A stretch of DNA of 64,000 bases, taken from contig SNWL01000007.1 in NCBI GenBank assembly GCA_004362315.1, forward strand, positions 534,254 through 598,253, written 5' to 3'. The notes beneath the pieces are model-generated. The model did no database searches. It worked only from the letters and a program-made list of their open reading frames with translations, and was not told the origin of the DNA. Shown piece after piece: positions 2 to 26,513 of the stretch. This DNA is from Mycobacterium sp. BK086 (GTDB lineage Bacteria > Actinomycetota > Actinomycetes > Mycobacteriales > Mycobacteriaceae). The translations under genes and the position numbers were made by a program. Numbering within the stretch: the stretch's first letter is position 1; each line of letters opens with the position of its first letter.

Positions 2-883
2 GTGTGGCGGCAGATCGCCGCGACGCCGTCCGCTTTGCCTGAGGTGGATCCCTTCGCGGACACCTTGGTGACCGCGGGGAACCTCGCGGCGGTTCTCGAT
101 ATCGAGACCACTCAGACTCTGCTCGGGGAGGTGCCCGCGGCGTTCCACGCCGGCGTGCACGAGATCATGCTGATCGCCTTCGCCTTGGCGGCAACGGAGT
201 TTCTGGGCACCGGCGGGACGCCGATCGCAATCGATGTCGAGGGTCATGGGCGCGACGACGAGCTGGTGGCCGCACCGGCCGAACAGGTCGATCTGTCCCG
301 CACGGTCGGCTGGTTCACCGCCAAATATCCGGTGGCCCTCGACGTGGGCGGACTGAGCTGGGCGCAGGTGGTGGCCGGTGACGCGAGGCTGGGCGCGGTG
401 GTCAAGGCCGCCAAGGAGCAGCTTCGCAGCCTGCCGGAGGGGCTGAACTACGGCGCTCTGCGCTACCTGAACGCCGAGGTCGACCTGGACGGGTCCGATC
501 CGGTGATCGGGTTCAACTATCTGGGGCGCCAGGGTGCGACGTCGGCCGAAACGTCCGGTGACACCTGGCAGATCTGCTGGGACGGTTTGGCGAACATCAG
601 CCCGAACGTGAAGCCGGCCATCCCGCTGATGCACACCTTGGAACTCAATGCCGGCACGGTGGACACCGACGCGGGGCCGTGTCTGTCCGCGGCCTGGACG
701 TGGGCGCCTTCGGCGCTCAACCAGGCGCAGGTCAATCGGTTGAGCCAGTTGTGGTTTGAGGCCCTGGCCGGAATCTGCGCGCATGTGCAGGGCGGCGGCG
801 GCGGGCTGACACCGTCCGATATCGCGGCCAGCCTCACCCAGGAGCAGATCGACGAGCTTCAGCGGCAGTATGCGGATAGCTGA
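2..883 (+). CDS. Nonribosomal peptide synthetase, C-terminal part (epimerization domain), truncated by window edge
   Basis: Only the last 293 residues are inside the window. They are the C-terminal half of an NRPS epimerization (E) domain, which converts the L-aminoacyl or peptidyl thioester on the preceding carrier domain to the D form. Visible E motifs are EGHGR (near residue 80), RTVGWFT..YP (near 100) and FNYLGR (near 171), followed by a Gly-rich linker and the end [16 protein letters not shown]. The protein therefore hands a D-configured intermediate to the next synthetase. Its stop overlaps the start of the downstream NRPS by 14 bases (870-883). This E domain closely resembles the one inside the next protein, including the linker ([12 protein letters not shown]). 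The overlap looks like the site of a one-base frame change rather than an ordinary protein end (see findings). The HHxxxDG half of the domain lies left of the window, so activity cannot be judged. Confidence 0.93.
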
Positions 884-3800
884 TGTTCTGCCGCTGACTC
901 CGCTGCAGCAGGGGTTGTTGTTTCACGCCAGCGCGGCGCTGGGTGGCGATGACGTATACGCGGTTCAGCTGTACGTGAGTTTGGCTGGTCCGCTGGATCA
1001 GGACAGACTGCGCGATGCGGTGCAAGCGGTGGTCGGCAGGCATCCCAACCTCGCGGCGCGGTTCTCACAGCAGTACGCCGAGCCGGTACAGATCCTCCTC
1101 GCTGAGCCGTCGGTGCCGTGGCAGTACCTCGAGCTCGACGGAGACGATGCCGAGGAGCGGATCGCACAGGTGTGCGCGGCCGAGCGTATCGCGGTGTGCG
1201 AGTTGGCCAATGAGCCGGCATTCCGGGCGCTGCTGATCAAAACCGGGGCCGACGAGTACCGCTTTGTGTTGACCAATCACCACATCGTGCTCGATGGTTG
1301 GTCGCTGCCGATCCTGCTGGGCGAGGTGTTCGCCACGTACTACGGGCAGCGCCTCCCGCCGGCCCCGCCGTACCGGCGGTTCGTCACCTGGCTCACGGGC
1401 CGTGATCTCGATGCCGCGCGCGCGGCGTGGGGTGAGGTGCTGGCCGGGTTCGACACTCCGACGTTGGTCGGCCCCGCGGGGCATGTCCCAGGCGGGCGCG
1501 CCGTCGCGTCGTTCCAGATGTCGTCGGACACCACCCGGGCGTTGGGTGAGTTGGCCCGGTCGTGCCACACCACGGTCAGCACCGTGCTGCAGGGCGCGTA
1601 CGCGCGAGTCCTGATGTCGCTGACCGGACAACGCGATATCGCGTTCGGTACCACGGTTTCTGGGCGGCCCGACGAGGTGCTGGGCGCGGACTCGATGGTG
1701 GGGCTGCTGATCAACACCGTTGTGGTTCGGGCGAGTATCGGAGCGTCGACGACGACCGCCGATCTGCTCGACCAGCTGCAGAACGAGCATGCCCAGACAC
1801 TTGACCATCAGCACTTGGCGCTCAACGAGATTCATCGTCTGACCGGACAGGACCACCTGTTCGACACGTTCTTCGTCTACGAGAACTATCCGATCGACGC
1901 CGCTACGTTGTCGGGTACCGACGGCTTGGCCGTCACGAACTTCGCCCACCATGAGTACAACCACTATCCGCTGTCGGTTCAAGCCATTCCGGGTGATGAG
2001 CTGACCTTGCGGGTCGAGTACGACACCGGCGTCTTCGATGCCGCAGGGGTCGACGCTCTGATCGGCCGGCTCAACCGGGTCGTGGCCGCCATGATCGCGG
2101 ATCCGTCGTCGCCGTTGTCGTCGATGGATCTGCTCGCCGTCGACGAGCACGCCACGCTGGATCAGTGGAGCAACCGCGCTGTGCTGGCCGATTCGGCGGG
2201 GACGTCACTGTCGATACCGGCGTTGTTCGCGGCGCAGGTGGCGCGTCACCCGGAGGCGACCGCGCTGAGTTTCGACGGTTGCTCGATGACCTATCGCGAG
2301 CTGGACGAGGCCGCCAACCGGTTTGCACACCTGTTGGCGGACACAGGGATTGGTCCGGGTGAGCGGGTGGCGCTGCTGTTGCCTCGGTCGGCGGATGCGA
2401 TCGTGTCGATTCTGGCTGTGCTCAAGGCCGGGGCGGCGTACGTGCCGATCGACCCGGCCGCACCGTCGGCGCGTATGCAACTGGTGTTGGCCGATGCCGC
2501 GCCCGCGGCCGCGATCACCAACCCCGAACTCGCGCCGCGGCTGGCCGGACAGAATCTGCGCATCATCGATGTGCATGACCCCGCGGTGCTCGTTCAGTCG
2601 AGCAGTCCGCTGCCCGGTCCGGCTCCCGACGACATCGCGTACTTGATCTACACCTCGGGTACCACCGGCGTCCCCAAGGGCGTCGCCATCGCCCACCGGA
2701 ACGTGGCTCAGCTGGTGGCGTCACTGCATGCGACACCCCTTCCGCCGGAGCGGGTTTGGTCGCAATGCCGGTCCTACGGCTTCGATGTCTCGGTCCAGGA
2801 GATCTTCGGCGCGCTGCTGGGTGGCGGACGGTTGGTCGTGGTGCCCGAGTCGGTGGCCCGCGCCCCCGAAGATCTGCAGGCCGTGCTGGTCGCCGAACGG
2901 GTGACGGTGTTCAGCACCACCCCGTCCGAAGTCGGGATGCTGTCGCCGACAGTCCTCGAGTCGGTGGCGCTGATCATCGGCGCCGAGCCCTGCCCGACCG
3001 AGCTGATGGATCAGTGGGCGCCGGGCCGGGTCATGATCAACGCGTACGGTCCCACCGAGACGACCGTCGACGTGGCGCTGAGTGCTCCGCTGACCGCGGG
3101 ATCCGGAGCGGTCCCGATCGGGCCGCCCATCGCCGGGGCGGCGTTGTTCGTACTCGACAGCTGGCTGCGTCCGGTGCCACCCGGAGTGGTCGGTGAGCTG
3201 TACGTAGCCGGCCAGGGCGTTGGCATCGGATATACGGACCGCGCCGGGTTGACCGGATCACGTTTTGTGCCATGCCCATTCGGCGGCACCGGAGCCCGCA
3301 TGTACCGCACCGGTGACTTGGCGTGGTGGGGTCCGGACGGGCAGCTGCGGTACGTCGGTCGCGCGGACGAGCAGGTCAAGATCCGCGGCTACCGCATCGA
3401 ACTCGGCGAAGTTCGCGCGGTGCTGGCCGGACTGGACGGAGTCGACCAGGCGGTGGTGATCGCCCGCGAGGATCGTCCCGGCGAGAAGCGCCTGGTCGGT
3501 TACGTCACGCGCCTTGCGGATGACCTCGACCCGCTCGCCTTGCGTGCGGCGATCGCGGAACGGTTGCCGGAGTACATGGTTCCCGCCGCGATCGTTGTGA
3601 TCGACGCTTTGCCCTTGACGGTCAACGGCAAGCTCGACCGCCGCGCTCTGCCGGCACCCGAGTTCTCCGACGCCGGCCAGTACCGTGCCCCGGCCACCGA
3701 GGTCGAGGAGGTGCTGGCCGGCATCTACGTCAGCGTGCTGGGTGTGAAGCGCGTCGGCGTCGACGACTCGTTCTTCAATCTCGGCGGGGATTCGCTATCG

Positions 3801-6800
3801 GCGATGCGCCTGATCGCTGCGGTCAATACCGCTCTGAATACCCGGCTTTCGGTGCGGGCGATCTTCGAGGCGCCCACGGTCGCCCAGCTGGCAGTGTTGA
3901 TCAGTGGGGACGAAGCCGTGCCCCAGCCTGCGGTCGCCCAAGCGCCGGCGCCGGTGCCCGTGGCCAAGAGCAGCTCGACGGGCTCCAGTGGGCCCATGCG
4001 CATCGCAGACGTCTTGCCGCTGACCCCGTTGCAGCAGGGGCTGCTGTTCCACGCCAGTGCGGGCTTGGGCGGCGACGATGTGTACGCGGTCCAGCTTTAT
4101 GTGAGTTTGAGTGGTCCACTGGATCAGGAGAAGCTGCACGCTGCGGTGCAGGCGGTCGTTGCCCGCCACCCCAATGTGGCGGCTCGGTTCTCGCAACGGT
4201 TCGCCGAGCCGGTTCAGGTCATCCCGGCCGATCCGGCGGTGCCGTGGCAGTACTTCGAACTCGACGCCGCAGACGGCGATGTCGAGGCGCAGATCGCCCA
4301 GGTGTGTGCGGCCGAACGTATCGCGGTGTGCGAGTTGGCCAATGAGCCGGCGTTTCGGGCGACGTTGATTCGAACCGCTCCCGATCAATATCGGTTTGTC
4401 TTGACCAACCATCACATCGTGCTCGACGGGTGGTCGCTGCCGATCCTGCTGGGCGAGGTATTCGCGAGCTACTACGGGCAACGGCTGCGCCCCGCCGCAC
4501 CGTATCGGCGGTTCGTCAGCTGGCTGGGCGGACGCGATCTCGATGCCGCGCGTGCCGCGTGGGGGCGGGTGCTGTCCGGATTCGAGACGCCGACTTTGGT
4601 GGGCGCGGCCGGCCGGGCGAGTCTGGGACGTCGCGATGTCGCGTCATCTCTTCTCTCCCAGCAGATGACCAGAGCCCTTGGCGAATTGGCGCGCACCAGT
4701 CACACCACGATCAGCACGGTATTGCAGGGCGCCTATGCACGGGTGTTGATGGCCATGACCGGGCAGCCGGACGTGGCCTTCGGGACGACGGTGTCGGGCC
4801 GCCCCGACGAAGTGTTGGGGTCGGACTCGATGGTCGGCCTGTTGATCAACACCGTGCCGGTGCGGGTCAGGATCACGACCACGACCACGACCACGGAACT
4901 GCTCGATCAGCTGCAGAACGACTACGCGTACACGCTCGACCATCAGCACCTGGCGCTCAGCGAAATCCATCGGATCGCGGGCCAGGACCATTTGTTCGAC
5001 ACGTTCTTCGTGTACGAGAACTACCCGATCGATGCCGCCAAGCTGTCGGGCGCCGACGGCTTGGCCGTCACGAACTTCGCGCACCGCGAGTACAACCACT
5101 ACCCCATCGCAATGCAGGCCCTGCCGGGCGATGAGCTGACTCTGCGCGTCGAGTACGACACCGACCTGTTCGACGCAACGGACGTGCAATCACTGATCGA
5201 ACGGCTCAAGCGTGTGCTGGCGGCCATGATCGCCGAACCGTCACGTCCGCTGTCCACGATTGACGTGCTGGCCGACACCGAGCTGGCCGACGTGGATCAG
5301 TGGAGTAACCGGGCGGTGTTGACCCAGCCGGCGCCCGCGTCGTTCTCGATTCCCGACTTGTTCGCGGCCCAGGTGACGCGCGCTCCCGATGCGGGCGCGC
5401 TCACCTGGGGGGAGCGCACCTGGACCTATCGTGAGCTGGACGAGGCCACGAATCGGTTCGCGCATCTGTTGGCCGGCAACGGGATCGGGCCGGGACAGCG
5501 GGTGGCGCTGCTGTTGCCGCGGTCGGCGGATGCGATCGTGTCGATTCTGGCGGTGCTCAAGACCGGGGCAGCCTACGTGCCGATCGACCCGGCCGCTCCG
5601 GCTGCCCGTATGCAGCTGGTGCTCGGCGATGCCGCGCCGGTCGCCGCGATCACCAATCCCGAATTGGCGCCGCGGCTGGTCGGTCAAGACATCCACATCA
5701 TCGACCCGAACGATCCCGCGATCGCAAGCCAACCCAGTACGGCACTACGCGGGCCCGCAGTCGATGACATCGCGTACCTGATCTACACCTCGGGCACCAC
5801 TGGTGTTCCCAAGGGTGTTGCGATCACCCACCAGAACGTGACCCAGTTGCTGGCCGCCATGGATGTCAACATCGATATGGCGGAACAAGTCTGGTCGCTG
5901 TGGCATTCGTTGGCCTTCGACGTCTCGGTCTGCGAGATGTGGGGCGCACTGCTCTATGGCGGGCGGTTGGTGGTGGTCCCCGAGTCCGTGGCTCGCGCAC
6001 CGGAGGAGTTCCACGCGCTGCTTGCCGCTGAACAGGTCACCATCCTGTCCCAGACGCCGTCGGCGTTCTATGCGCTGCAGACCGCCGACGCGATGCAGCC
6101 CGACCTCGCGCGCCAGCTGAAGCTGCATGCGGTGATCTTCGCCGGTGAAGCTCTTGAGCCACAACGTCTTCGGACGTGGCTGGACCGCCACCCCGGGACG
6201 CCACGCCTGCTCAACCTGTACGGCACCACCGAGACCACCGTGCACGCGTCGTTCCGGGAGATCGTCAACGGCGACACCGATTCCGATGTCAGTCCTGTCG
6301 GTGGCCCGCTGGCGGACCTGGCGTTCTTCGTGCTCGACCAGTGGTTGCGCCCGGTGCCGGCCGGTGTGATCGGTGACCTGTATGTGGCTGGGCCGCAGGC
6401 TGGTCTGGGCTATTGGCGGCGACCGGGGTTGTCGTCGTCGCGCTTTGTCGCCTGTCCGTTCGGCGCGCCAGGAGACCGGATGTATCGCACCGGGGATCTG
6501 GTCTGGTGGGGCAGCGACGGTGAGCTGCGCTATGTGGGCCGCGCTGACGAGCAGGTCAAGATTCGCGGCTATCGCATCGAACTCGGCGAGGTTCGTGCTG
6601 TGCTCGCCGAGGTGGACGGAGTGCAGCAGGCGGTCGTGATCGCGCGCGAGGATCGCCCCGGCGACAAGCGTCTGGTCGGCTACGTCACCGGCTCGGTCGA
6701 TTCGGTTGGCGCGCGAGCCGCAGTGGCCGAACGTCTGCCGGACTACATGGTTCCCGCGGCGATCATGGTGATCGACGCCTTGCCGTTGACGGTCAACGGC

Positions 6801-9800
6801 AAGCTGGACCGCCGGGCCCTGCCCGCTCCGGAATTCGCGGGCACCGACTCCTACCGCCCGCCGGCCACCGCGGTCGAGGAAATCCTGGTCGGCATCTATG
6901 CGAGGATCCTCGGTCTGAGCCGGGTCGGGGTGGACGACTCGTTCTTCGACCTCGGTGGAGATTCGCTGTCGGCGATGCGCTTGATCGCGGCGGTCAATAC
7001 CGGTCTGAACACCCACCTTTCGGTACGGACACTGTTCGAAGCACCATCGGTGGCTCAGCTGGCTCCACGCATCGGCGGTGATGACGATCGGCTCAAGCCG
7101 TTGGGCCCGATGGAGCGTCCGGCGGTGATTCCGCTGTCGTTCTCGCAGAACCGGTTGTGGTTCCTCGACCAATTGCAGGGACCGTCGCCGACCTACAACA
7201 TGGCGGTGGGCCTGCGACTGGTCGGACCGCTCAATGCCGAGGCGCTGGGCGCGGCGCTGGCCGATGTGGTGGGTCGCCACGAAAGCCTGCGCACCATGTT
7301 CGCCGCACCCGACGGGATTCCGCAGCAGCTGGTGGTACCCGCCGAGCGTGCCGACTTCGGCTGGGATGTCATCAATGCGGCCGGCTGGTCGCAAGCCCAA
7401 TTGGACGAAGCCGTCAGTGCGGTGGCGTTGCACTCGTTCGATCTGGCCGCGGAGATTCCCATGCAGGCGCGGCTATTTCGCGTCAGCGACGCCGAGCACG
7501 TGGTGGTGGCGGTCGCCCATCACATCGCCGCGGACGGACTCTCGATGGCTCCGCTGGTGAATGACCTGGGCGTCGCCTACGTCTGCCGATCCTTGGGGAT
7601 GGAGCCCGCATGGGCTGAATTGCCGGTCCAATACGTCGATTACACACTCTGGCAGCGTGCGCAGTTCGGCGACCTGGACGATGGCAACAGCCTGATCGCC
7701 GCACAACTGGACTACTGGCAGGACGCGTTGGCAGGCATGCCGGAGCGACTGCAATTGCCCTCCGACCGGCCGTACCCGCCGGTGGCCGACCAGCGCGGCG
7801 CCACGATCGGCTGGGAGTGGCCGATCGAGCTGCAGCAGCGGATCGCCGCGGTGGCCCGCGAGCACAACGCGACGAGCTTCATGCTGGTTCAGGCGGCACT
7901 GTCGCTGCTGCTGAGCAAACTGAGCTCGAGTTCCGATGTGGCGGTGGGATTCCCGATCGGCGGGCGCACCGACCCGGCCCTTGATGCGCTGGTGGGATTC
8001 TTCGTCAACACCCTGGTGTTGCGTGTCGATGTCGGCGGTGACCCCACCGTCGCCGACCTCCTGGCCCAGGTGCGCAAGCGTAGCCTGGCTGCCTACGAAC
8101 ACCAGGACGTGCCCTTCGAGGTCGTCGTCGAGCGGATCAACCCGACTCGATCGCTCAACCACCACCCGCTGGTCCAGGTGATGTTGGCCTGGCAGAACCT
8201 GCCGGGGGAGACCAGCGAAGACATTGCGCTGGCATTGGGCGACCTGCAGGTCAGCCAACTTCAGCTCGACACCCACACCGCGCGGGTGGATCTCGCGTTT
8301 TCACTGACCGAACGCTGGACCCATTCCGGCGAGCCCACCGGCCTGTACGGCATGGCCGAGTTCCGCACCGACGTCTTCGATCCCGCGACCATCGAAACGC
8401 TGGTCGGGCGCCTGGAACGGGTGTTGGCCGCGATGATCGCCGACCCGTCTGCGCGGGTGTCATCGATCGATGTGCTCGATTCCGCCGAGCACGCGCGCCT
8501 CGATGTGATGGGCAACCGTGCGGTCCTGACGGCGGCCGCACCCGATGCTGTCTCGGTTCCGGAGTTGTTCGCCGCGCAGGTCAGTCGCGCCCCGCAGGCG
8601 ATTGCGCTGACGTCCGCCGATGTGTCGATGACCTACTCTGAACTCGAGGATTCGGCGAACCGCTACGCGCACTTGCTTTCTGACCGCGGTGTCAAGGCCG
8701 GCGACTGCGTGGCGCTGCTGCTGGACCGCTCGGCAGGCGCTGTCGTGGTCATGCTCGCCGCGCTCAAAGTCGGCGCCGCGTACCTGGCGATCGATCCCGC
8801 GCTTCCGGAGGCGCGGATCGAGTTCATGCTCGCCGATGCCACACCCGTCGCCGTGGTCACCACGGCCACGCTGCGCTCGCGGCTGCACGGTCATGATGTG
8901 ACGGTCATCGATATCGATGATCCCGTCGCGGATCGCCAACCCAGCACCGCGCTGCCCGTGCCATCTCCCGACAACATCGCCTACCTGATCTACACGTCGG
9001 GGACGACAGGTACCCCCAAAGGTGTTGCGCTGTCTCATCGCAACCTGGCACACCTGGCCGCCTCAGCGCATCCCGATCTGCCTGCCGACCAGGTGTGGAC
9101 CCAATGCCACTCCTATGCCTTCGATTTCTCGGTGTGGGAGATCTGGGCGGCGCTGCTCGGCGGCGGCCGGCTGTTGGTGGTGCCGGACCCGGTGGTCCGC
9201 TCGCCGGAGGATTTCCACGCGCTGCTGGTCAGCGAGCACGTCAACGTACTCACCCAAACCCCTTCGGCGGTAGCGGCTTTGCGCCCAGAGGGGCTGGAGT
9301 CGGTGGCGCTGCTGCTCGGCGGCGAGGCCTGCCCGCCCGAAGTGGTCGAGCAGTGGGCACCGGGCCGGGTCGTCATCAACGCTTACGGCCCCACCGAGGT
9401 GACCGTGTACGCGACGATGAGTGCGCCCCTGGCGGTCGGGGCTGAGGTACCGATCGGTGCTCCGCCCCCGACCGTCGCGCTGTTCGTCCTCGACGAACGG
9501 CTGTGCCCGGTGCCGGAGGGCGTCGTCGGCGAGCTGTACGTGGCCGGCCGTGGCGTCGGCGTCGGGTACATCGGCCGGACCGGATTGACCGCATCCCGTT
9601 TCGTGCCATGCCCGTTCGGCGAGCCCGGCTCGCGGATGTACCGCACCGGCGACCTGGTCCGGTGGCGTGCCGACGGGCAGCTGCAATACCTCGGGCGCGC
9701 CGACGAGCAGGTCAAGATCCGCGGATACCGCATCGAGCCCGGCGAGATCCAGGCCGTACTGGCCGGCCTCGACGGGGTCGACCAGGCGGTGGTGATCGCC

Positions 9801-12800
9801 CGCGAGGATCGCCCCGGCGACCCGCGCCTGGTGGGCTACTTCACCGGCACGGCCGATCCGGTCAAGATCCGGGTAGCGCTCGCCGAAAAGCTGCCCGCCT
9901 ACATGGTTCCGGCGGCCGTGCTGGAACTGTCGGCGCTGCCGCTGACAGTCAGCGGCAAGCTGGACCGGCGGGCGCTACCGGCCCCCGACTACCAGGACAC
10001 GGAAAACTACCGCGCCCCAAGCACTCCCACCGAGGAGATTCTGGCCGGCATCTTCGCTCAGGTGCTGGGCACCGACCGGGTGGGTGTGGACGACTCGTTC
10101 TTCGACCTCGGTGGGGATTCGTTGTCGGCAATGCGCCTGGTCGCGGCCGTCAACAACAGCATGGGCTCCGGCCTCGCGGTCCGCGTGCTGTTCGAGACAC
10201 CCACCGTCGCGCAACTGGCGCTGCGGGTTTCCGGCGACGACACCCGTACCGAGCCGTTGGTGGCCGGCCCGCGGCCAGACGTCGTACCGCTGTCCTTCGC
10301 TCAGAACCGGCTGTGGATCGTCGATCAGCTCCAGGGGCCGTCACCGATCTACAACCTGCCGGTGTCGTTGCGGCTGCGAGGCCAGCTCGACACCGACGCT
10401 CTGGGTGCGGCGCTGGCCGATGTGGTGGACCACCAGGAAAGCCTCCGTACCCGGTTCCCGGCGATCGAAGGTGTGCCACAGCAGCTCGTCGTGCCCACCG
10501 ATGTCGCGGACTTCGGCTGGGCGGTGATCGATGCCACCAACTGGTCGGACGCCGAGTTGGCCGACGCGATCGACGCGGCAACTCGGTATACGTTTGATCT
10601 TGCCACCGAAATCCCGATGCAGGCAAAGCTTTTCCGCATCGCAGGCGATGAGCACGTACTGGTGGCGGTTGTGCATCACATCGCCGCCGACGGCTGGTCC
10701 ATCGCACCGCTGGTACGTGACCTCGGCGTCGCGTACGCCAGCCGCGCGGCCGGTGAGGCTCCCGGGTGGGCCGGTCTGGCCGTGCAATACGTCGACTACA
10801 CACTCTGGCAGCGATCTCGACTCGGCGACCTGGCCGACGCCGACAGCCGTATCTCCGCGGAACTGGCCTACTGGGAAGACGCGCTGGCCGGGATGCCCGA
10901 ACAGCTGCAACTGCCCACCGATCGGCCCTACCCGTTGGCCGCCGACTACCGCGGCGAGCGCCTGGATATCGAATGGCCCGTCGAGCTGCAGCAGCAGGTC
11001 GCCAAGGTGGCACGCGAGCACAACGCAACCCCCTTCATGGTGATGCAGACCGCGCTGGCGGTGCTGCTGTCGAACCTGTCCGCGAACAATGATGTGGCGG
11101 TTGGTTTCCCGATCGCAGGGCGTGGTGATACCGCGCTCGACGAGTTGGTGGGGTTCTTCGTCAACACGTTGGTGCTGCGCGTCGACCTGTCCGGGAATCC
11201 CACCTTCGCTGACCTGCTCGCCCAGGTGCGCAGGCGCAGCCTGTCTGCCTACGAGCATCAAGACGTGCCGTTCGAGGTGCTGGTGGAGCGGCTCAAGCCG
11301 ACCCGGAGCATGGCTCATCATCCGCTGGTGCAGGTGGTACTGGCCTGGCAGAACTTCGGCTGGCAGGCGGGCGACGCCGCCGGATTGTCGCTGGGGGATT
11401 TGCAGGTCGAACCGATGGCGGTGGATACCAAGACCGCCCGGATGGATCTCACCTTCAACCTGGCCGAACGGTGGAATGAAGCGGGCGAACCCGCAGGGAT
11501 CGGTGGCGGTGTCGAATTCCGCACTGACGTCTTCGATTCCGCCAGCATCGGCACGCTCGTCGACCGGCTGCAGCGGGTGCTGACGGTGATGACCGCCGAC
11601 CCGGCTGCGCCGATGTCGGCGTTCGATGTCCTCGATGTGGCCGAGCACGCCCGCCTGGACCAGATCGGCAACCGCGCGGTACTGGCCGAGCCGGTGCGCA
11701 CCCCGGACACGATTGCCTCGATGTTCGCCCGGCAGGCAGCGCTCACCCCCGACGCCATGGCGGTCACCTTCGAGGGCGTGTCGATGACGTATCGGGAGCT
11801 CGACGAGGCGACGGACCGGGCGGCGCACGTATTGACCAGTCGCGGTGCGGGACCGGGCCAACGGGTGGCGCTGCTGCTGCCGCGGTCGGCCGAGGCGATC
11901 GTGGCCATGGTGGCGGTGGTGAAGACCGGCGCCACCTATGTGCCGATCGATCCGTCGGTGCCCGAACAGCGCCGGCAGTTCGTCCTCGGCGACGCGAAGC
12001 CCGTCGCCGCGGTCACCACCGCCGCATTGACCGAATTGCTTGATGGACATGCTCTTTCGGTCATCGATGCCGACGACCTGGTCGACGTCGCCGTCGATAC
12101 CGGTGCAGTGCTGCCCGGGCCGCAGGCCGATGACGTCGCCTACATCATCTACACGTCCGGCACCACGGGAACACCCAAGGGTGTTGCGATTCCGCACCGC
12201 AATGTGATTCGCCTGCTGGAGACCCTGGACGCCGATATGGACATGGCCGGCCTCGCCTGGTCGCAATGCCACTCACTGGCATTCGACTTCTCGGTGTGGG
12301 AGATCTGGGGTGCGCTGCTCTACGGCGGCCGCGTGGTCGTGGTCCCCGATGCGGTGGTGCGCTCGCCGGAGGATCTGCACGCCTTGCTGGTGACCGAGCA
12401 GGTCGGTGTCCTGAGCCAGACCCCGTCGGCGTTCTATGCCTTGCAGACCGCCGATGCGGCGAATCCCGAACTGGGCTCACAGCTGAAGCTCGAGGCCGTC
12501 GTGTTCGGCGGGGAAGCCCTTGAGCCACAGAAGATGCGGGCGTGGCTGGCGAATCATCCTCCCGGCACGCCGCGCCTGCTCAACATGTACGGCATCACGG
12601 AGACGACGGTGCACGCCTCGTTCCGGGAGATCGTCGCCGCGGATGCGGACAGCGCCGTCAGCCCCATCGGGGTGCCCTTGGGTCACCTCGGCTTCTTCGT
12701 CCTCGACACCCTGTTGCGGCCGGTTCCGACCGGTGTCGTCGGGGAGCTGTACGTGGCCGGTGCGGGCGTGGCCGACGGTTACATCGGCCGGTCCGGGTTG

Positions 12801-16424: not shown

Positions 16425-17371
16425 CCTTGTGAGGCTTGGTTTCCCGCGGTGTACCAGCGGGTGACGTCGTAGCCTGCCTCATAGCGGGCAAGCCATTCAG
16501 TGGCCAGGCGGGGGAGTTTCTGCTTGGCGGGATTGTGACCGGGAAGCTGGCTGCGCATCACCCCGAACGCCGCGACCGCCTGCTCGCGCAGCGGGATGTG
16601 CGGATAGAACTTCTGGATCGGCCCGTAGTTGGGGATATCGAATTGCCGATACTTCTGAAGCAACGGAAATCTATTGGACAGAGTCGCCTTCAAGCCCGGA
16701 CTGCCGAACATCGAAGTGGCGTCGACCTTGCGCTCTTCGAGTGGAATGTGCTTGTTGAAGCTTCTGGTGGCCTTGACCATCACCTCTCCGCCGTGCTGGA
16801 ACACCGACGGAGCTATCCGCATCCGATACCACGGATCGCCGACGACGGCGTTGTAGATGATCAGCGCCGAACTGCGATGTTCCATTTCTTCGACGAAATG
16901 CCAGAGGAACAACGAGGCCACCCGGTCGTCGCCGGGCGCGAACAAGGTGTCCGCGTTGTTGAGCATCATCGTGAACGTCGGTGTGAACGTCGCCTCCAGA
17001 TCGGCGATGTAGGCCAATCGGTAGTTCACCGACGTGTTCGCGGTCATCTCGTCATAGGCGGCCATGATCTCGTCAAGGGTCTCTTCCAGCGCCGGATAGC
17101 CCTTGATCAGACCCTTGGCATGCTGGCGGTGCGCCATGCTGTGCTGGCCCTCTTGACGGACGAATGCCAAAGCCTCCTCGGCGATTTCCTGGTCGGTGAT
17201 CGTGGGGAGTACCTCGTGGACCGTCGCGCTGATCATCTTCTCCACCGCGAGAAACAGGAACGACAGCAAGTTGGCCGCGCAGGAGAAGGCGGGATCGGAC
17301 GGATTCCAGTTGAACGGAACGGGATAGTCGGCGAAGCCGAATCGCAACTTCCGCACGTGTAGATCAGTCAC
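16421..17371 (-). CDS. Metal-dependent hydrolase family protein (PF10118-like), ferritin-like di-iron pattern
   Basis: 316 aa, GTG start, no clear Shine-Dalgarno, 13 bases after the upstream methyltransferase-like gene. I recognise it as the family annotated 'predicted metal-dependent hydrolase'. The sequence carries E44, E74-x-x-H77 (in EGQHSMAHR), E125 and E162-x-x-H165 (in EEMEHR), i.e. the E / ExxH / E / ExxH arrangement of four-helix carboxylate-bridged di-iron proteins. An oxygenase- or oxidase-like activity is therefore as plausible as hydrolysis; the substrate is unknown. No signal peptide is seen. It is the third gene of a minus-strand unit after the PKS and the membrane methyltransferase, which suggests tailoring of the polyketide or lipid part. 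Its TAG stop overlaps the NRPS stop from the other strand (shared CTAG at 16421-16424), so the two operons converge without space for a terminator. Confidence 0.8.
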
Positions 17372-17384: not shown

Positions 17385-18059
17385 TCACCACATGTAGGGA
17401 ATCAGGCGTGAGCGGACCTTCTGGGTGTATTCGCGGTATCCGTCCAACTCGTCGCCGAGCAGCCTCTCCTCGTCATGGATGCGCGCGGCGAGGACGGCCA
17501 CGCCAGGCATGACGAATGCGAGTGCCCAGAAGGAGCCCAGCGCGAGGGGCAGACCGACCAGGATCAGCACGTTGCCGGTGTACATGGGGTGCCGCACCAG
17601 GCCGTAGAGGCCGGTACTGACGACCGTCTGGCCCGTCTCGACCTGAACGGTGGTGGAGGCAAAGGTGTTTTGGACGGCCACCAGCACCGTCACGATCAAG
17701 CCGCCGCCGGCCAAGACGTTGCCGAGCACGCAGAGTGCTGCCGGTACCGATGACCAGCCGAAGCGGTGGTCGAGTGCACTGACCACACAGATCGCCACCA
17801 GAGATCCGTAGAGGCCGAGCATGACGATCTTCTGCACCGCCCGGCCTTCGGCGATCGGCCCGCTGCGCATCCGACGCTCCAGGACAACGGGATTCGTAAT
17901 CTGTAGGTAGATGCTCGGGAACCACGCCGTCAGCGCGAACACCGCCAAGAAGGTCCACGCCTGCCAGTAGTTCACGGTGCCGGCCGGCAGGAACACCAGC
18001 AGGCCGATCGCGACGAGCTGGCTGAAGCCCAAGGCGGCCACTCTGAGAACGGCGTTCAC
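17385..18059 (-). CDS. Isoprenylcysteine carboxyl methyltransferase (ICMT)-like integral membrane protein
   Basis: 224 aa with about five hydrophobic segments (roughly residues 7-27, 35-52, 77-97, 105-128 and 163-185). The motif LVRHPMYTGN (near residue 153) and the C-terminal EERLL....YREY are the S-adenosylmethionine-site signature of the ICMT / phospholipid methyltransferase superfamily (NnrU/DUF1295 relatives). Known members methylate carboxyl groups, phospholipid head groups or alkyl resorcinols at the membrane; bacteria lack prenylated CaaX proteins, so the eukaryotic reaction is not expected. GTG start with a GGGAGG ribosome site 6 bases upstream. It lies 70 bases downstream of the PKS gene and is probably co-transcribed with it. 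Methylation of the finished lipid or lipopeptide (O- or ester methylation) is a reasonable inference but unproven. Confidence 0.75.
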   Translation of the reverse strand: MNAVLRVAALGFSQLVAIGLLVFLPAGTVNYWQAWTFLAVFALTAWFPSIYLQITNPVVLERRMRSGPIAEGRAVQKIVMLGLYGSLVAICVVSALDHRFGWSSVPAALCVLGNVLAGGGLIVTVLVAVQNTFASTTVQVETGQTVVSTGLYGLVRHPMYTGNVLILVGLPLALGSFWALAFVMPGVAVLAARIHDEERLLGDELDGYREYTQKVRSRLIPYMW

Positions 18060-18129
18060 GATCCTCCCAAGATCTCTGTCCAGTTGCGCATGCCTGTGCC
18101 GATGTCGCGCCGGGTATCCGACATGGCGG

Positions 18130-21100
18130 CTAGGCCGGCGCGTCGCTGTTGGTCGGTGCCAGCTTTTCGCACAGCAGTTCCGCCAGCCCGCGAACGGTGC
18201 CGACGGCGAGGTCGCCGGACGTCAAGCGCACACCCGTTTCGGATTCCAGTCGGGTGCGTAATTCCAACGCTCCCAGCGAGTCCACGCCGTATTCGGCCAG
18301 CGGCCGGTCGGGCTCGATATTGCGACGCAGAATCAGGCTCACCTGGTCGGAGATCAGGCGGCGCAATCGGGTCGGCCACTCCGCCCGCGGCGTCCCGCTG
18401 AGCTCGGCGAGCAGTTTGCTTGTGCCCGTTTGAGTTTCTCCGACGGTGTTGAATGCTTCGGCGAACGGCGTCCGCTCGGCGAACTCGGTCAACCACGTGC
18501 TGCCGGTGGTCGGTGCATAACCGGTGTAGGCCCGGTCGTGGCGCAGCAACACGTCCAGTGCATACGCGCCCTCGTCGGGAGCGATGGCCACGCCTGCGCT
18601 CTCGGCGAGCTCAGTGGCGCGCCCGATCTGGGCCCAGGGGCCCCAGGCGATCGCGGTGCCCGGGAGGCCTCGGGCTCGCCGCCAGCGGGTGAACGCATCC
18701 AGCCAGCTGTTGGCCGCGGCGTAGGCCCCCTGCCCGGGCGAGCCCACCAGCGCGGACGCCGACGAGAACGAGCAGAACCAGTCGACCGGTTGATCGGCGG
18801 TGGCGCTGTGCAGATTCCACGCGCCGTAAACCTTTGGCGCCCAATCACGCTCGATCAGTTCGTCGGTGATGTTGGCCAGCGTGGCATCCTCGATGACGGC
18901 CGCGGCGTGCAGGACACCCCGGACCGGCAGTCCGGTGGCGGTGGCGGCCTCCACCATTTTCTGTGCGGTCGCGGGATCCGCGATGTCACCGCAGTGCACG
19001 ACGACCTCGGCGCCCATCGCGCGGATCAGCTCGATCGTTTCCAGCGCCTTGAGGGTCGGCTGCGAACGGGAGGTCAGCACGATCCGGCCGCAGCCCGCGA
19101 CGGCCATCTTCTCGGCCAGGAACAATCCCAGGCCACCCAGCCCGCCGGTGACCAGGTAGGCGCCGTCAGCGCGGAAGGCATTGGCCTGCTCCGGCGGAAC
19201 CACGACGTTGCTGGTCCCGGTTCGCGGGATCTCCAACAGCAGCTTGCCCGTGTGCTGGGCCGCGCCCATCACCCGGATCGCGGTCGCGGCATCGGCCAAC
19301 GGGTACTCGGTGTGCGCGGCCGGCGGCAATTCGCCTTCTGCCACAAGCTGATACACGGTGCGCAGCAGGTCGCCGATCCGCTGGGGATGGCTCAGCGACA
19401 TCAGTGCCAGGTCCACGTAGTAGAACGTCAGGTTTCGCCGGAACGGGAACAAGCCCAGTCGGGTGTTCCCGTAGACGTCGCGCTTGCCGATCTCGACGAA
19501 CCGCCCCCCGGTGGCCAGGAGCTCGAATCCGGCGCGCTGGGCTGCCCCGGTGAGGGAGTTGAGCACGATATCCACGCCGTAACCGTCGGTGTCGTGGCGG
19601 ATCTGGTCGGCGAAGTCGGTGCTGCGCGAGTCGTAGACATGTTCGATCCCCATGTCGCGCAGCATTTGTCGACGTTCCTCGCTACCCGCGGTCGCGAAGA
19701 TCTCGGCGCCCGCGGCCCGCGCGACTCCGATGGCGGCCTGGCCGACACCGCCGGTCGCGGAGTGGATCAGAACCCGGTCACCTGCCCCGATCCGAGCCTG
19801 CTCGTGCAGGCCGTACCACGCGGTGGCGCTCGCGGTTGCCACCGCCACTGCCTGGTGATCGGTCAGGGCGTCCGGAAGCGTCACCGCGAGCCGGGCATCA
19901 CAGGTGACGAACGTGCCCCAGCATCCGTTCGCGGAGAACCCGCCGACCCGGTCGCCGACGCGATGGTCGGTGACGTCCGGACCGACCGCGGTGACCACGC
20001 CTGCGAAATCCATCCCCAGCTCGGGCAAGCCGCCCTCGATGGCGGGGAAGAGCCCCATCGCGACCAGCACATCGGCAAAGTTGATGCTGGACACGCCGAC
20101 AGCGACCTCGATCTGCCCCGGGCCCGGCGTAACGCGTTCGCTGGCAACCAGTTCCAAGGTTTCCAAGTCGCCGGGCGTGCGGATCTGCAGCCGCATGCCC
20201 TCGGAGTCGTTGTCGGCGACGAGCATCTGCCGCTCATCGGATCGCAACGGGCTGGGCCGCATGCGGGCCGTGTACCACGCGCCGTCGCGCCAGGCGGTCT
20301 CGTCTTCCTTGGACCCGCAGAACAGCTGCCTGGTCAGTTGTTCTGCATCGGTGCTGTCGTCGACGTCGATCTGGGTGGCGTGCAGGTGCGGGTATTCGGT
20401 GCTGATCACCCGCACCAGCCCGCGCAGACCGCCCTGCTCCAGGTTGGCGACATCGCCGTCCACGACGGTCTGGGCCGCACGCGTGACCACGAACAAGTGC
20501 GGGATGTGGCCCGTCGTCTGCGCCAACTCCCGCGTGATGCGCGCCAGATGCTGGACGTATTCGCTTCCCACGAGCGGGGATTGGTCGGAGCCCTCGCTGG
20601 TCTTCGGTCCGGTGAGGATCACCGCGCCGGTCACCTTGCCGGAACGCAGGTGCTCGGCCAGGTGCGTGGTGTGGGAGGCGTGGTCGGCATTCGGTGGCCA
20701 GCTCATCGTGTTGCACTGTGCACCTTGGTTTTTCAAGGTGTCGGTCAGTGCGTTGCCGAGCAGGTCAGCGGTGGCGGTGGTGCTGATCAACAGCCAGGTG
20801 CCGGCGTCGACGTGAGTCGGCTCCGGCAGCTGCCGCTGCTGCCATTCGATGGCCAACAGGCGCTCGCCGAGCAGCCGCTCCTGCTGAGCCTCTTCGGATT
20901 CCCCTGTACCGCAGATCAATCCCCGCACACTGAGCAGAACAGTGCCGTCCTGGTCGAGAACGTCGAGATCGGCCTCGATTCCGGCAGAATCGATTTGAGT
21001 GACTCGGGCGTAGCAGTAGTGGGCGTTGCGGGCCGGTCCGTAGGAGCGCAGTCGTCCCACTCCCAATGGCAGTCCCGCCATGCCGGCTTGGAGCTGCGGA

Positions 21101-24100
21101 CTGGCGGCAACTGCCTGGAAGCAGGCGTCCAGCAGTGCCGGGTGCACGCCGTACGCGCCCTGTTGCATCCGGATTTGGCGGGGAAGTGCGACTTCGGCCA
21201 GCACGCTGCCGCTGGCGTCATCGCCGGTGTGGATATCACCAAGGCCACAGAACGCGGGCCCGTAGTGCACGCCGAGCTGGTCCAACCGGTCGCGCACCTC
21301 GTCGCCTCCGGTGCGATGCGGGTGGGCGGCGAGCAGGGCGGCGATATCGTATGCGGCGGGCGGCTCGTCGTCTGCGGTGTACAGCACCGCGCTGGCTTGC
21401 CGTGCTTGGCGCCCGCCGTCATCGGATTCGACGAGGAAGTCGACGGCGCCGGGGGAGGACAGTGCCGCCGATGCGCCGATGGTGGTTTCGTCGTCGAGCA
21501 ACAGCGCGTGCTCGAAACGGATATCGCGAACCTCGGCGGCTTCTCCGAGCACGGCGTGCGCCGCAGCCAGGGCCATCTCGCAATAGGCGGCGCCGGGCAG
21601 TACCGCCACGGTTCGAATCGTGTGATCCGCGAGCCAGGGCTGGGCGACGGTACCGACCTGGGCCTGCCACACGTGGCGCTCCGGCTCCTCCGGCAAGCGC
21701 ACGTGCGGGCCGAGGAGCGGATGGACGGACACGGTGAAACCGCCGTGTGACTGTGTCTCGTGGCCGTCGTGGTCCAGCCACAGCCTGCGTCGTGTCCACG
21801 CCGGCAGCGGTGCGTCGACCAGTTGTCCATCCGGATACAGCACCGAGAAGTCGACTTCGGCACCGGCACTGTGCAAATCGGCCACCAGGCCGCGAAGCCC
21901 GTGCGGCAACGTCTGCTCACGGCGCAACGCGGCGAACGTGGCGACCGGCGCGTCCAGGTTCTTGGCGGTCCGTTCGATGGTGTGCGTGAGCATCGGGTGC
22001 GGTGCCAGTTCGGCGAACACCCGGTATCCGTCTTCCAGTGCGGCTCGTGCGGCCGCGGCGAATCGCACGGTGTTGCGCAGGTTCTTGGCCCAGTACTTGT
22101 TGTTGCACACCGGTTCTTCGCGGGGGTCGAAGCCGGTCGCCGAGTAGAACGGAATCTGCGGCGTCAGCGCTTTGATCTCGGCGAGAGCCTCGGTGAGCTC
22201 AGGAAGAATCGGATCGACAAGGGGAGAGTGGGCCGCGACGTCGATCACGGACTGGCGGACCATCACGTCGCGTTCTTCCCACGTCGCCATCAGCTCGCGA
22301 ACAGTCTCGGTCGCGCCGCTGATCACCGTGGAGTCCGGTGACGCGACCACCCCGACGACGACGTCCTTGATGCCGCCCAGCGTCAGCTCCGAAAGTACTT
22401 GCTTGGCAGGCAGTTCCACCGATGCCATGATTCCGGAGCCGGCGAGGCGCGCCATCAGCTGCGAGCGCCTGCAGATCACCCGAACCCCGTCTTCGAGGGA
22501 CAGCGCCCCGGCGACAACCGCCGCGGCCACCTCGCCCATCGAATACCCGATGACAGCGCCAGGACGTGCGCCGTACGCCTTCATGGTGGCGGCCAGTGCC
22601 ACCTGAATGGCGAATACCGCCGGCTGCAACTGCGCGTCGCCGCTCACCACGTCCGGTGCGGTGATCGCCGCGGTGACCGAGAATCCGGACTCGGCGGCGA
22701 TCATCGGCTCGAGCTGTGCCACGGTGGCCGCGAAAACCGGCTCGGTGTCGAGCAGCGGCGCGCCCATCCGAGCCCATTGGGAGCCCTGTCCGGAGAACAC
22801 CCAGACCGGCCCGCGATCGTCGTGTGCCAGTGCGGCAGGGTGGGGCGCCTCGTCGGCGGCGACCTCGAGCAACGCCGCGGTCAGCTCCGACCCGCTGGTC
22901 GCGTGGACGGCGGTGCGAACCGGGCGGTGCGCGCGGCGGCGCGCGAGCGTGTACCCGAGATTCGGCAGTGTCACCTCGTCGTGGGTCTGCACCCACTGGG
23001 CCAGCCGGCCGGCCGAGCGCCGCAGGCCGTCGGCTGAGGTCGACGAGAGCGGGAAGAGCAGCGGTGCGGGGGGAGCGTCGTTGCGATCTGCGCTCGTGCT
23101 GCGTGTTGCCTGCGGCTCAGGACCTTGCTCCAGGACGGCGTGGACATTGGTCCCCGACACTCCGTACGACGACACCGCCGCGCGGCGCGGATGGGAGCCG
23201 TTTACCGGCCACTCGGTGTTCTCCACGGGGACAAAGAGTTTCGTGGGGATTTTGGCCAGATCGTCGGGCAGGCGGGTGAAATGCAGATTGCGGGGGATCG
23301 TGCCGTGCTGCAACGCCAGGATCGCCTTGATCAGGCCGATGACACCGGAGGCGGACTGCGAGTGGCCGACGTTGGTCTTCACCGATCCGAGCGCGCAGGG
23401 CGTGTCGAGCCCGTACACGTCGCTCAGGCTGGTGTATTCGATGGGATCGCCCACCGGAGTGCCCGGCCCGTGCGCCTCGACCAGGCCGACACTATTTGCG
23501 TCGACATCCGCGGCCGCCAGCGCTGCCCGATACACAGCGGCCTGAGCGGTGACCGAGGGAGTGGAGGTGTTCACCGTGTGGCCGTCGTGGTTGACGGCCG
23601 TACCCCGGATGACGGCCAGGATGCGGTCGCCGTCGCGGATCGCGTCCGGCAGGCGCTTGAGGAGCACCATCGCACAGGCCTCGCCGGCGACGTAGCCGTC
23701 GGCCTCGACGTCGAAGGCTTGGCAGCGCCCGGTGGGGGAGAGATGGCCCGCCGCGGTTCCCGCGACGTACTTGCGCGGGTCCAGCATCACGTATGCGCCG
23801 CCGGCGAGGGCGAGGTCGCTCTCGCCGTCGCTCAGGCTGCGGCAGCCCATGTGCACGGCGAGCAGCCCGGACGAACATGCGGTGTCGACCGCCATCGCGG
23901 GACCGTGCAGCCCCAGCGTGTAGGCGATGCGGCCGGAGGCCATGCTGAACGTGTTGCCGGAGAACCCGTAGGGCCCCTCCATGGCCTCGGACTCCGCCGA
24001 CACCGACTGGTAGTCGGAGTGCGACAGCCCGGTGAACACGCCCGTCAGTGAGTCTTTCAGGGCTTCCGGTGCGAGCCCGGCATGCTCCATGGCCTCCCAC

Positions 24101-24474
24101 GCGGTCTCGAGCAGCAAACGGTGTTGCGGGTCGATCGCGGCTGCCTCGCGCTCGTTGATGCCGAAGAATTCCGAATCGAAGCCGGCAACGTCGTCGAGGA
24201 AGGCGCCCCACTTCGACGAGGTGCGGCCCGGTACGCCCGGCTCCGGGTCGTAGTACTCGTCGTTGTCCCAGCGGTCCCGCGGCACTTCGGTGACCAGGTC
24301 GGCGCCGTTCCGCAGCGCTTCCCAGAGCTGCTCGGGGGACTCGATACCGCCGGGAAGCCGGCAAGCCATACCGATGACGGCGACCGGAATTGTCGACTTG
24401 GAGCTCATAGCGGCTGGGGAAATCGGGGTACTTGAGCCGCTTGGCCGATCACCGATCGCACCGAATGAAACCAT
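18130..24474 (-). CDS. Mas-like type I polyketide synthase, KS-AT-DH-ER-KR-ACP
   Basis: A 2,114-aa fully reducing single-module PKS. Its length and domain order match the mycobacterial Mas-like family (mycocerosic acid synthase, Pks2, Pks5), which work iteratively to make methyl-branched fatty acids. KS ~30-455 has Cys200 in DTACSS and His in HGPGT and KTNVGH. AT has GYSMGE (~643) and the selectivity-region motif VAAHS, closer to the YASH form (methylmalonyl) than HAFH (malonyl). DH ~920-1200 has H in [14 protein letters not shown] and D in LLDACFQ. ER has the nucleotide motif [10 protein letters not shown] (~1570). KR has TGGLGGLG (~1775) and Y in YAAANSW (~1923). ACP has [11 protein letters not shown] (~2063). 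ATG at 24474 follows GAGGAG at good spacing, so it is preferred to the internal Met23, which has no ribosome site. The divergent acyl-AMP ligase probably supplies its starter. No thioesterase is present. Confidence 0.92.
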
Positions 24475-24749
24475 CCCGTCTCCTCAACAGCAACGAAGCC
24501 GCAGTCCAGTCCGTTGCTTGACTCACCTCTGGTCCCCCAACCCGGGCAAGACGATTATTGACGCAGACGCAGCGTCCCGGGTCAAGTTTGCTTGATTCGC
24601 AGGTAAGTGCACAGGAAAGCCGGTGGCAGGGGAGTTTGCCGAGCGCGCTAAGCGGACTGGTTAGGGCGGCGCGCAACGGTTGACGAGGGCGTCACTTAAC
24701 TTGGCTGTTCGAAAGTGAGGGCGCTACGGCTTTTGATAGCTTGCTTGCC
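24475..24749. promoter_or_regulatory. Divergent intergenic region between the PKS and the fatty-acyl-AMP ligase
   Basis: The 275 bases separate the oppositely transcribed PKS and ligase starts and must hold both promoters. They contain an island of lower GC around 24550-24600. The minus-strand ribosome site GAGGAG of the PKS lies just outside its ATG. On the plus strand a -10-like TAGCTT sits directly before the ligase GTG. No coding sequence and no strong inverted repeat were recognised. A shared region suggests that the two genes are co-regulated. Confidence 0.6.
24737..24742 (+). promoter_or_regulatory. Candidate -10 hexamer TAGCTT for leaderless transcript of the acyl-AMP ligase
   Basis: TAGCTT fits the mycobacterial TANNNT -10 pattern and is followed by exactly 7 bases (GCTTGCC) before the GTG at 24750. 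Transcription would thus start at, or within a base of, the start codon. No Shine-Dalgarno is visible upstream of that GTG. Leaderless genes are common in mycobacteria. No convincing -35 was found. Confidence 0.45.
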
Positions 24750-26513
24750 GTGACACAGGCGATTGAGGCATCGATTCCGGCCCTGCTGCGCGAACGCGCC
24801 AGCATGCAGCCGGATGACATTGCGTACACGTTCATGGACTACGACCAGGACTGGGCCGGCGTCCCGGTCAGCCTGACGTGGCCGCAGTTGTATCGGCGCG
24901 TTGCCAACTTCGCCCGCGAGCTCAGCCTGACCGCGTCACCCGGCGATCGCGCGATGATCATCGCCCCCCAAAGCCTGGAATACATCGTTGCGTTCCTGGG
25001 CGCCCTGCACGCCGGTGTGATTCCCGTTCCGCTCTCGGTCCCCATGGGCGGTGTCACCGACGAACGGGTCGAGTCGGTCATGCGCGACGCATCACCCGTT
25101 GCCGTGCTCACGACGTCCGCCGTTGTGGCCGAGGTGAGTCGCAGCATCGTCCCCAACCCCGGGCAGGCGCCGCCGGCCATCATCGAGGTCGATTTGCTCG
25201 ACCTCGATGCTCCGCCGCGGCCAGGGGCGCCCGCGATGTACGAGAACGACAATCCGCACGCCACCGCGTATCTGCAGTACACCTCCGGTTCGACGCGCTC
25301 ACCGGCTGGTGTGATGATCTCGTACACAAACCTTTTCACCAATCTGCAACAGATCACCACCGATTACTCGAGGCATGCCGGGGTCACCCCGCCCGATCTG
25401 ACGTTCGTGTCGTGGCTGCCGTTCTTCCACGATCTGGGATTGATCCTGGGGGTTTGCTCGCCGATTGTTCTGGGGACCAGCGCCGTGCTGACCAGCCCGG
25501 CGTCGTTCCTGGTGCGGCCGGCGCGCTGGATGCAGCTGCTGGCGACCAATCCGTGCCCCTTCACCGCGGCACCGAACTTCGCGTTCGACCTGGCCACCAG
25601 GAAGACTTCTGATGAGGACATGGCCGGGCTGGACCTCGGCGGCGTGCACACCATCCAGAGCGGCGCCGAGCGGGTTCAGCCCGCGACGATCAAGCGCTTC
25701 ACCGACCGATTCGCCCGTTTCAATCTGAGCGAGGCGGTGATTCAGCCGTCGTACGGCATGGCCGAGGCCACCCTGTACATGTCGACCCCCAGGCCCGAAG
25801 ACCCGATCAAGGTCGTGTACTTCGACACCGATGCCCTGACCGCCGGCGAGGCCAAGCGTTCCGGCGAGGACGGCACCCCGCTGGTCAGTTACGACGGTCC
25901 GATCAGCTCGCGCTCGCCGGTCCTGCGGATCGTCGATCCGGAGACCCGCACCGAGGTTCCGGACGGGAAGACCGGGGAGATCTGGTGCCATGGCGACAAC
26001 GTCAGCATCGGCTACTGGGAAAACCCGGAGGAGACCGCCCGCACCTTCGGCGGCACCATCGTCGCACCGTCGGCAGGCACGCCCGAAGGCCCGTGGCTGA
26101 AGACCGGCGACGTCGGCTTCATCTCGGATGGCGAGCTGTTCGTCGTCGGCCGGATCAAGGATCTGTTGATCATCTACGGCCGCAATCATTCTCCCGATGA
26201 CATCGAGGCGACGGTCACGGAGATCACCAAGGGCCGTTGTGTGGCGATCGCCGTTCCGGATGACGACGTGGAGAAGCTGGTCGTCGTGATGGAGGTCAGG
26301 AAGCGTGGCGATTCCGACGAAGAGGCCAAGCAGCACCTCGAGGCCATCAAGCGCGACGTGACGTCGGCGATCTCGAACACGCACGGCATCGCGGTGTCCG
26401 ATCTGGTTCTGGTGGGCGGGGGTTCGATCCCGGTCACCACCAGTGGCAAGGTCAGGCGACAATCCTCGGTGGATCTCTACCAGCGCAAGCAGTTCGTCCG
26501 CCTGGACGGCTGA
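24750..26513 (+). CDS. Long-chain fatty-acyl-AMP ligase (FAAL / FadD32-like)
   Basis: 587 aa from GTG 24750. It belongs to the ANL adenylating superfamily, most like the FAAL branch (FadD23 to FadD32 group), which makes acyl-adenylates from free fatty acids and passes them to a PKS or NRPS carrier domain rather than to CoA. Seen: the P-loop [13 protein letters not shown] (near residue 175), [10 protein letters not shown] (near 220), [10 protein letters not shown] (near 335), the hinge region [18 protein letters not shown] (near 470) and a C-terminal lysine in TTSGKVRR. The TSGSTR.P.GV loop and PFFHDLG are typical of FAALs and differ from the CoA-forming enzymes. No carrier domain is fused. 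Divergent orientation from the Mas-like PKS strongly suggests it primes that enzyme. A TTG three codons upstream is the alternative start. It ends one base before the convergent glycine-rich gene. Confidence 0.9.

Follow-up and report, generated by a model that had tools for sequence, protein, structure and literature searches.

Which product is assembled by the NRPS genes at the left end of this stretch of Mycobacterium DNA, and how does the peptide leave a synthetase whose last unit has no A domain? The window, that is the whole stretch of 64,000 nucleotides that was analysed, corresponds to bases 534254-598253 of contig C5 in a 6.93-Mb genome, and its right edge is the right end of the contig. 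Its biosynthetic genes make up the right-hand core of an island, some 50 kb long or more, for a glycolipopeptide; as for release, the terminal A-less C-T unit would end the chain without adding a residue, and the adjoining ICMT-family protein would cap it as a methyl ester. Taken as a whole, this is the best explanation of the locus, and one that we consider probable.

A first, sequence-only reading had proposed a lipopeptide locus with NRPS, PKS, fatty-acyl-AMP ligase (FAAL), methyltransferase and di-iron protein genes, and all of them are indeed present, each where it had been placed. The features are the following, negative coordinates lying left of the window:

-3682 to 883, + strand: NRPS1, 1521 aa, starter C - A(Thr code) - T - E; the gene starts left of the window
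1 to 883, + strand: 3' part of NRPS1 that falls in the window (E domain)
870 to 16424, + strand: NRPS2, 5184 aa, C-A-T-C-A-T-C-A-T-C-A-T-E-C-T; four loaded modules, then an A-less terminal C-T, as given by the domain scan and the codes
14892 to 16421, + strand: terminal A-less C-T unit of NRPS2, with HHILLDG and GGDSL intact
16421 to 17371, - strand: PF10118 protein, a probable ferritin-like di-iron enzyme, whose stop codon overlaps that of NRPS2
17385 to 18059, - strand: protein of the ICMT (isoprenylcysteine carboxyl methyltransferase) family, proposed to O-methylate the carboxyl end of the peptide
18130 to 24474, - strand: Mas-like iterative PKS, 2114 aa, KS-AT-DH-ER-KR-ACP
24741 to 26513, + strand: FadD23/FadD28-type FAAL
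L009:2-1270, left of the window: UDP-glucose dehydrogenase
L009:7527-8861, left of the window: epimerase

The genes for the PF10118 protein, the ICMT and the PKS lie tail to tail with NRPS2, and the FAAL gene is divergent from that of the PKS. Left of the window, on one strand, a GT28/EryCIII-type glycosyltransferase and a Methyltransf_24 gene are followed by an MbtH gene and NRPS1; farther left, Pfam identified two more EryCIII-type glycosyltransferases, a GT4 enzyme, the UDP-glucose dehydrogenase and epimerase listed above, an ABC-2 exporter pair, three AT3-SGNH acyltransferases, a TylF-like methyltransferase, GMC oxidoreductases and Gfo/Idh enzymes. In total, three GT28/EryCIII-type genes are found within 40 kb left of the window and they recur in relatives, which contradicts the absence of glycosyltransferases implied by the sequence-only reading. 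Since these glycosyltransferases are accompanied by sugar-nucleotide enzymes, AT3s and methyltransferases that are likewise recurrent, the product is probably glycosylated and GPL-like; the glycan may contain a uronic acid, as suggested by the UDP-glucose dehydrogenase and the epimerase. A conserved 272-aa frame of seemingly unknown function (L009:13721-14539, - strand) was discarded, as it is the antisense shadow of the Methyltransf_24 gene on the opposite strand. On the other side of the locus, beside the FAAL gene, there is a 1705-aa frame (28016-33133, - strand) of about 80% GC and with no Pfam match, with the look of a PE_PGRS-type protein; to its right are housekeeping genes, argS and then those of lysA-, hom-, thrC-, rho- and ATP-synthase-type proteins. 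A 417-aa frame (33352-34605) is 6.8 kb from the FAAL gene here, and 0.7-2.5 kb from it in ten relatives.

As for the unity of the locus, a PF10118 scan of named genomes returned 20 loci, 13 mycobacterial (from 12 genomes) and 7 non-mycobacterial: NRPS2, PF10118, ICMT, PKS and FAAL occurred together in all of the former and in none of the latter. The same five-gene block was complete in 24 of 28 further regions of the genus, picked around mostly best-scoring PF10118 matches; the two sets overlap, with several genomes in both. In genomes G013, G077, G220 and G105 PF10118 stood without the rest of the cluster (20 kb examined in each), and with matches in 209 of 396 genomes this family is unusable as the sole marker of the cluster; the same applies to the ICMT family, present in 327 of the 396. 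All 13 genomes compared (the present one plus the 12 with the mycobacterial loci) have a close MbtH gene: in nine it shares the contig of PF10118 at a distance of about 18-24 kb, in G405 the distance is 50 kb, and in three it is on another contig; this gene lies immediately 5' of the NRPS in 16 of 24 clusters, and most of the others end short of that side. The left island recurs as well: the UDP-glucose dehydrogenase (82-96% identity), the epimerase, the AT3s and the NRPS-side glycosyltransferase are each found in all 12 relatives compared, the ABC pair in 11, and the GMC oxidoreductase and Methyltransf_24 gene in 10 each. Carriers of the cluster include M. rhodesiae, M. sphagni, M. litorale and M. 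vinylchloridicum.

The best solved relatives of the FAAL and the PKS are FadD23/FadD28 and Mas, which serve non-peptide lipids, and this would favor two unrelated neighbour loci, the PKS/FAAL pair then serving acyltrehalose or lipooligosaccharide synthesis. Such a chance neighbourhood is highly improbable in view of the joint conservation in the PF10118-centred regions, including that of G056, where the PKS/FAAL block is inverted yet present; a LOS/sulfolipid-type PKS-FAAL locus was also considered and set aside. The sequence-only reading had assigned both blocks to one lipopeptide with a PKS-derived acyl chain, and had asked whether they are conserved separately in different genomes: they travel together, and the five-gene block and the left island are one glycolipopeptide locus.

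Regarding the peptide, the modules read Thr(E), X1 (DVQSIGAVD), X2 (DVCSIALVH), X3 (DFWTLGAVY) and Thr(E); the A-domain codes, and with them the reading of Thr, rest on a fragment of the GrsA numbering. The nearest module to that of X1 (67%) is a Phe-like one of G320, with a different code, and the X2 module has its nearest match (72%) in a Ser-like one of G214. X3 is assigned as Leu because DFWTLGAVY occupies the Leu6 position in the calibration on genome G088 and the glycolipopeptide GL8P described below; it is a calibrated Leu code, for which in-silico prediction had given Thr at position 6 of GL8P. When 82 C domains of 14 genomes are placed in one tree, those that come first, the NRPS1 domain included, make up a separate clade, which is shared by one further C domain at the start of a G323 frame and which fits N-acylation. 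The C domain after X1 groups with those following E domains, though the X1 module has none, and X1 may be D or achiral, given this type of following C domain. Of the terminal C domains, 14 of 15, all except that of G088, fall in one group (support 0.98) together with one internal after-E domain. The core predicted for the product is N-(PKS-acyl)-D-aThr-X1-(Ser?)-Leu-D-aThr-OMe, glycosylated.

The window PKS, for its part, is closely similar to Mas over its KS-AT-DH-ER-KR-ACP domains; a methyl-branched acyl chain is plausible, with the reservation that the AT motifs of the window PKS (GYSMGE/DVAAHS) differ from those of Mas (GHSMGE/DVASHS). The GYSMGE motif is found in 13 of 22 PKSs (those of 5- and 6-module clusters, the window included), and GHSMGE, as in Mas, in nine (those of 4-module clusters, plus G056, G098 and G184); judging from such motifs, the extender unit may have changed between clusters. 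The FAAL scores 916 bits against NF004509, the model for the fatty-acid--AMP ligase subfamily (cut-off 775), and FadD23 aligns with it over residues 8-589. In the PF10118 proteins the ligand residues are invariant, in an alignment that leaves aside L021 (stop codon in the stretch), L023 (same organism as L022) and L030 (shorter match). The PF10118 protein had no sequence match in the PDB; with its predicted fold, Foldseek gave no match under E 0.001, and unrelated proteins also appear among its matches. A fold comparison gave a match at the level of a common helical bundle, and the 50 rows listed for it are chains of RNR R2, R2lox, CmlI, AurF and methane monooxygenase. A ferritin-like di-iron oxygenase of the AurF/CmlI/R2 kind would have two ExxH motifs plus two Glu ligands in a helical bundle; the reading of this protein as a probable di-iron enzyme draws on the invariant ligands and on that fold match.

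The end of NRPS2 is the point of major interest. The sequence-only reading had described a Thr-loaded module followed by an unloaded last one, and both are real: the penultimate module has a Thr code and an E domain, and the C-T that follows lacks an A domain, as it does in all 25 clusters examined, the present one included. Complete clusters have four, five or six loaded modules, with the exception of the much larger synthetase of G323. All 26 termini of these 25 clusters retain the HHxxxDG and GGDS motifs intact, so that both domains look functional; this would suit loading of the terminal T in trans, from a free-standing A domain, with the C-T acting as an ordinary extension half-module and a hexapeptide as the product. 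Loading in trans of an A-less half-module takes place in syringomycin biosynthesis. Nevertheless, this alternative appears unlikely: no free-standing A domain except the FAAL was found among the cluster frames scanned with Pfam, and the module count in G088 also speaks against it, as detailed below.

Some clusters depart from the common layout. G323 (L021; G323:C23, L077, L078) has two ICMT genes, a synthetase frame of more than 8,200 aa, a second A-less C-T end upstream and A codes that are mostly different. In G009 (L053/L052) NRPS2 is split into two frames, and in G151 (L049/L048) a gap of about 1.4 kb lies inside its last E domain.

GL8P, the product of the second GPL locus of M. abscessus, has eight residues, T-A-F-I-Y-L-T-T, and a plain stearoyl or arachidyl N-acyl chain, according to the available text of PMC11978893. 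In genome G088 (5.06 Mb), two NRPS genes together encode eight A domains, and both the codes of these and the E positions (1, 3, 6, 8) fit this peptide; on the basis of this correspondence, the G088 locus would be the counterpart of the M. abscessus one. The G088 synthetase ends in E-C-T, with an ICMT match 38 bp downstream of the C-T match; Pfam did not find a thioesterase in it, and a thioesterase domain is annotated on the GL8P synthetase in the accessible portion of PMC11978893. With eight A domains in G088 for the eight residues of GL8P, the C-T would add none, which is at odds with its loading in trans. For both GL8Pa and GL8Pb the published formula is larger than that of the free acid by exactly CH2, in agreement with the masses (computed from the data available in PMC11978893); the accessible text of that paper does not place the extra CH2 at the C-terminus. 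No Mas-like PKS was found in 50 kb of G088 or in 44 kb of G320, and the former, together with the plain acyl chain of GL8P, fits a PKS that serves the acyl chain where it is present. The 50-kb stretch of G088 has no PF10118 match either. The supplementary data of PMC11978893 compare the second-locus NRPSs of other species.

The association between C-T ends and ICMT genes was then surveyed in 396 genomes of the genus, with 113 full-length C-T matches listed (from 104 genomes) and 150 listed ICMT matches; 37 of the 150 listed C-T rows were excluded for not reaching query residue 504. An ICMT lies within 6 kb of 88 of the 113 listed C-T ends, always on the 3' side (75 convergent, 13 on the same strand). 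Inspection of the sequence 3' of the remaining 25 ends added an ICMT for G065 and G102, and for eight further ends (G351, G306, G214, G114, G316, G125, G340 and G171), so that 98 of the 113 listed A-less C-T ends have an ICMT at their 3' side; on simple assumptions, chance would give about 0.6. As for the 15 listed ends without ICMT in the 3' stretch examined, five had less than 6 kb readable (G127, G189, G336, G094 and G375), five run into further NRPS homology (G323, G116, G227, G189 and G094), and seven, with the full 6 kb read and no further NRPS, had no ICMT (G117, G319, G379, G186, G107, G122 and G138); these last indicate that the link is not obligatory. PF10118 genes are neighbours of at least 27 of the 113 listed ends, and the NRPS has a Mas-like PKS in its vicinity in G065, G102, G082, G014, G261, G084, G098, G214, G114, G340 and G138. 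At the level of the order (150 genomes, 55 genera), eight genomes had a C-T match with E <= 1e-110, six of them full length, and all belonged to the same genus as the window.

The ICMT protein scores 42.0 bits against PF04140 (gathering score 24), and its best solved relative is 4a2n; it also passes the PEMT cut-off (37.1 versus 25), and its NCBIfam scores are far below the equivalog cut-off. Along with the 61 of the 150 listed ICMT matches that have no full-length C-T end within 6 kb, these scores leave a small probability to another substrate, such as a sugar hydroxyl, an acyl carboxylate or a membrane lipid, in which case the peptide would leave as a free acid via an unlinked thioesterase. 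The position of the ICMT 3' of most listed A-less C-T ends argues against this alternative, as do the GL8P formulae, corresponding to the free acid plus CH2, and the C-terminal methyl ester of L5P, a lipopentapeptide (available part of PMC8103206). We infer that the ICMT makes the C-terminal methyl ester and that the C-T adds no residue. Whether an A-less C-T with an ICMT-family methyltransferase is a general, so far unrecognised mode of NRPS termination in mycobacteria, with release without an added residue and a methyl-ester cap, is a question on which we are evenly divided; no report of it was found in the open-licence literature, in which most subscription journals are missing. If true, it would account for the known methyl-ester ends of mycobacterial lipopeptides with a testable explanation at the gene level, and this chain-termination hypothesis is the most interesting part of the finding.

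In the pathway proposed, the FAAL would activate a fatty acid and the Mas-like PKS would extend it; the starter C domain of NRPS1, which belongs to the clade of first C domains, would then join the acyl chain to D-allo-Thr. NRPS2 would add X1, X2 (closest to a Ser-like code), X3 (Leu) and a second Thr, epimerised to D-allo-Thr, after which the A-less terminal C-T would serve chain termination and release with no further residue, and the adjoining ICMT would convert the C-terminal carboxylate into a methyl ester. Judging from their families, the left-hand glycosyltransferases, sugar-nucleotide enzymes, methyltransferases and AT3-SGNH acyltransferases would decorate the peptide, probably at the Thr hydroxyls, and the ABC-2 exporter would carry the product outwards; for the PF10118 protein, the probable role is oxidation of either the acyl chain or a residue. 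Against this scheme, it should be noted that the terminal T keeps its serine, which is not obviously needed for a purely hydrolytic release. The product is probably a glycosylated acyl short peptide of the cell surface.

How does this product relate to known ones? The GL8P locus (MAB_4689c-4705c) has MbtH and glycosyltransferases, as here, and first and last residues of GL8P are D-allo-Thr, like those of the predicted core (available text of PMC11978893). The A-less C-T end with an ICMT directly downstream, seen in the GL8P-like locus of G088, is shared with the window cluster and is not named in the accessible portion of that paper, which also assigns MmpL/MmpS and a fatty-acid CoA ligase to the M. 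abscessus locus. However, the five modules of the window do not follow the eight-module TAFIYLTT pattern with E domains at 1, 3, 6 and 8, so GL8P itself was rejected as the identity of the product; moreover, the N-acyl chain of GL8P is unbranched and G088 lacks, in its 50 kb, the Mas-like PKS and PF10118 genes that the window cluster has.

The C-type GPLs (Mps1/Mps2; available parts of PMC3537567 and PMC5996870) share with the window cluster an N-acylated NRPS peptide, MbtH, modified sugars and a PKS that serves the acyl chain. Their peptide is D-Phe-D-aThr-D-Ala-L-alaninol, from modules Phe(E)-Thr(E)-Ala(E)-Ala, in contrast to the five of the window, Thr(E)-X-X-Leu-Thr(E), and their NRPS ends in an alaninol-releasing reductase, whereas NRPS2 ends in C-T with the ICMT adjoining; PF07993 has 20 matches in the genome, one of which is in a frame above 1,300 aa (2714 aa; a weak partial match of 20.5 bits). 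Glycosyltransferases, methyltransferases and acyltransferases accompany both loci, but export differs, with an ABC exporter and no MmpL among the frames scanned here, unlike the C-type GPL locus, which has MmpL4/MmpS4. The C-type GPL was thus rejected on its terminal reductase and Phe-Thr-Ala-Ala modules, in line with the mismatch that the sequence-only reading had pointed out. Mycobactin and exochelin siderophore loci were also set aside; salicylate loading, formyltransferase and siderophore transport genes were not seen among the cluster frames scanned with Pfam.

L5P of M. avium subsp. paratuberculosis resembles the predicted product as an N-acyl pentapeptide with a C-terminal methyl ester, but it differs in its sequence, D-Phe-NMeVal-Ile-Phe-Ala, and no sugars are mentioned in the available part of PMC8103206, unlike the glycosylated core predicted here; the accessible portion of PMC7823733 has nothing on L5P genes. 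The claim that the locus is undescribed holds for the exact cluster, with no report in the open-licence literature (most subscription journals being absent from it) and no product known, and does not hold for the kind, since GL8P, C-type GPL, M. xenopi GPL and L5P are known and the window cluster is best placed among those for mycobacterial glycopeptidolipids. With it, the mycobacterial envelope repertoire gains a conserved family of lipids that are probably glycosylated peptides of four to six residues.

Finally, the serine-containing GPL of M. xenopi is glycosylated and ends in D-allo-Thr, like the predicted product, and differs from it in its core, Ser-Ser-Phe-D-aThr with a C12 acyl chain, against aThr-X-(Ser)-Leu-aThr here (available part of PMC7261415). 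The clusters of G214 and G320 (L093, L095) have four modules, Ser-like(E) - Ser-like or Thr - Phe-like - Thr(E), followed by a C-T end and an ICMT, and by their codes they would fit a M. xenopi-type Ser-Ser-Phe-aThr core; their first Ser-like module has an E domain, compared with the L-Ser given in the available text of the M. xenopi review (PMC7261415).
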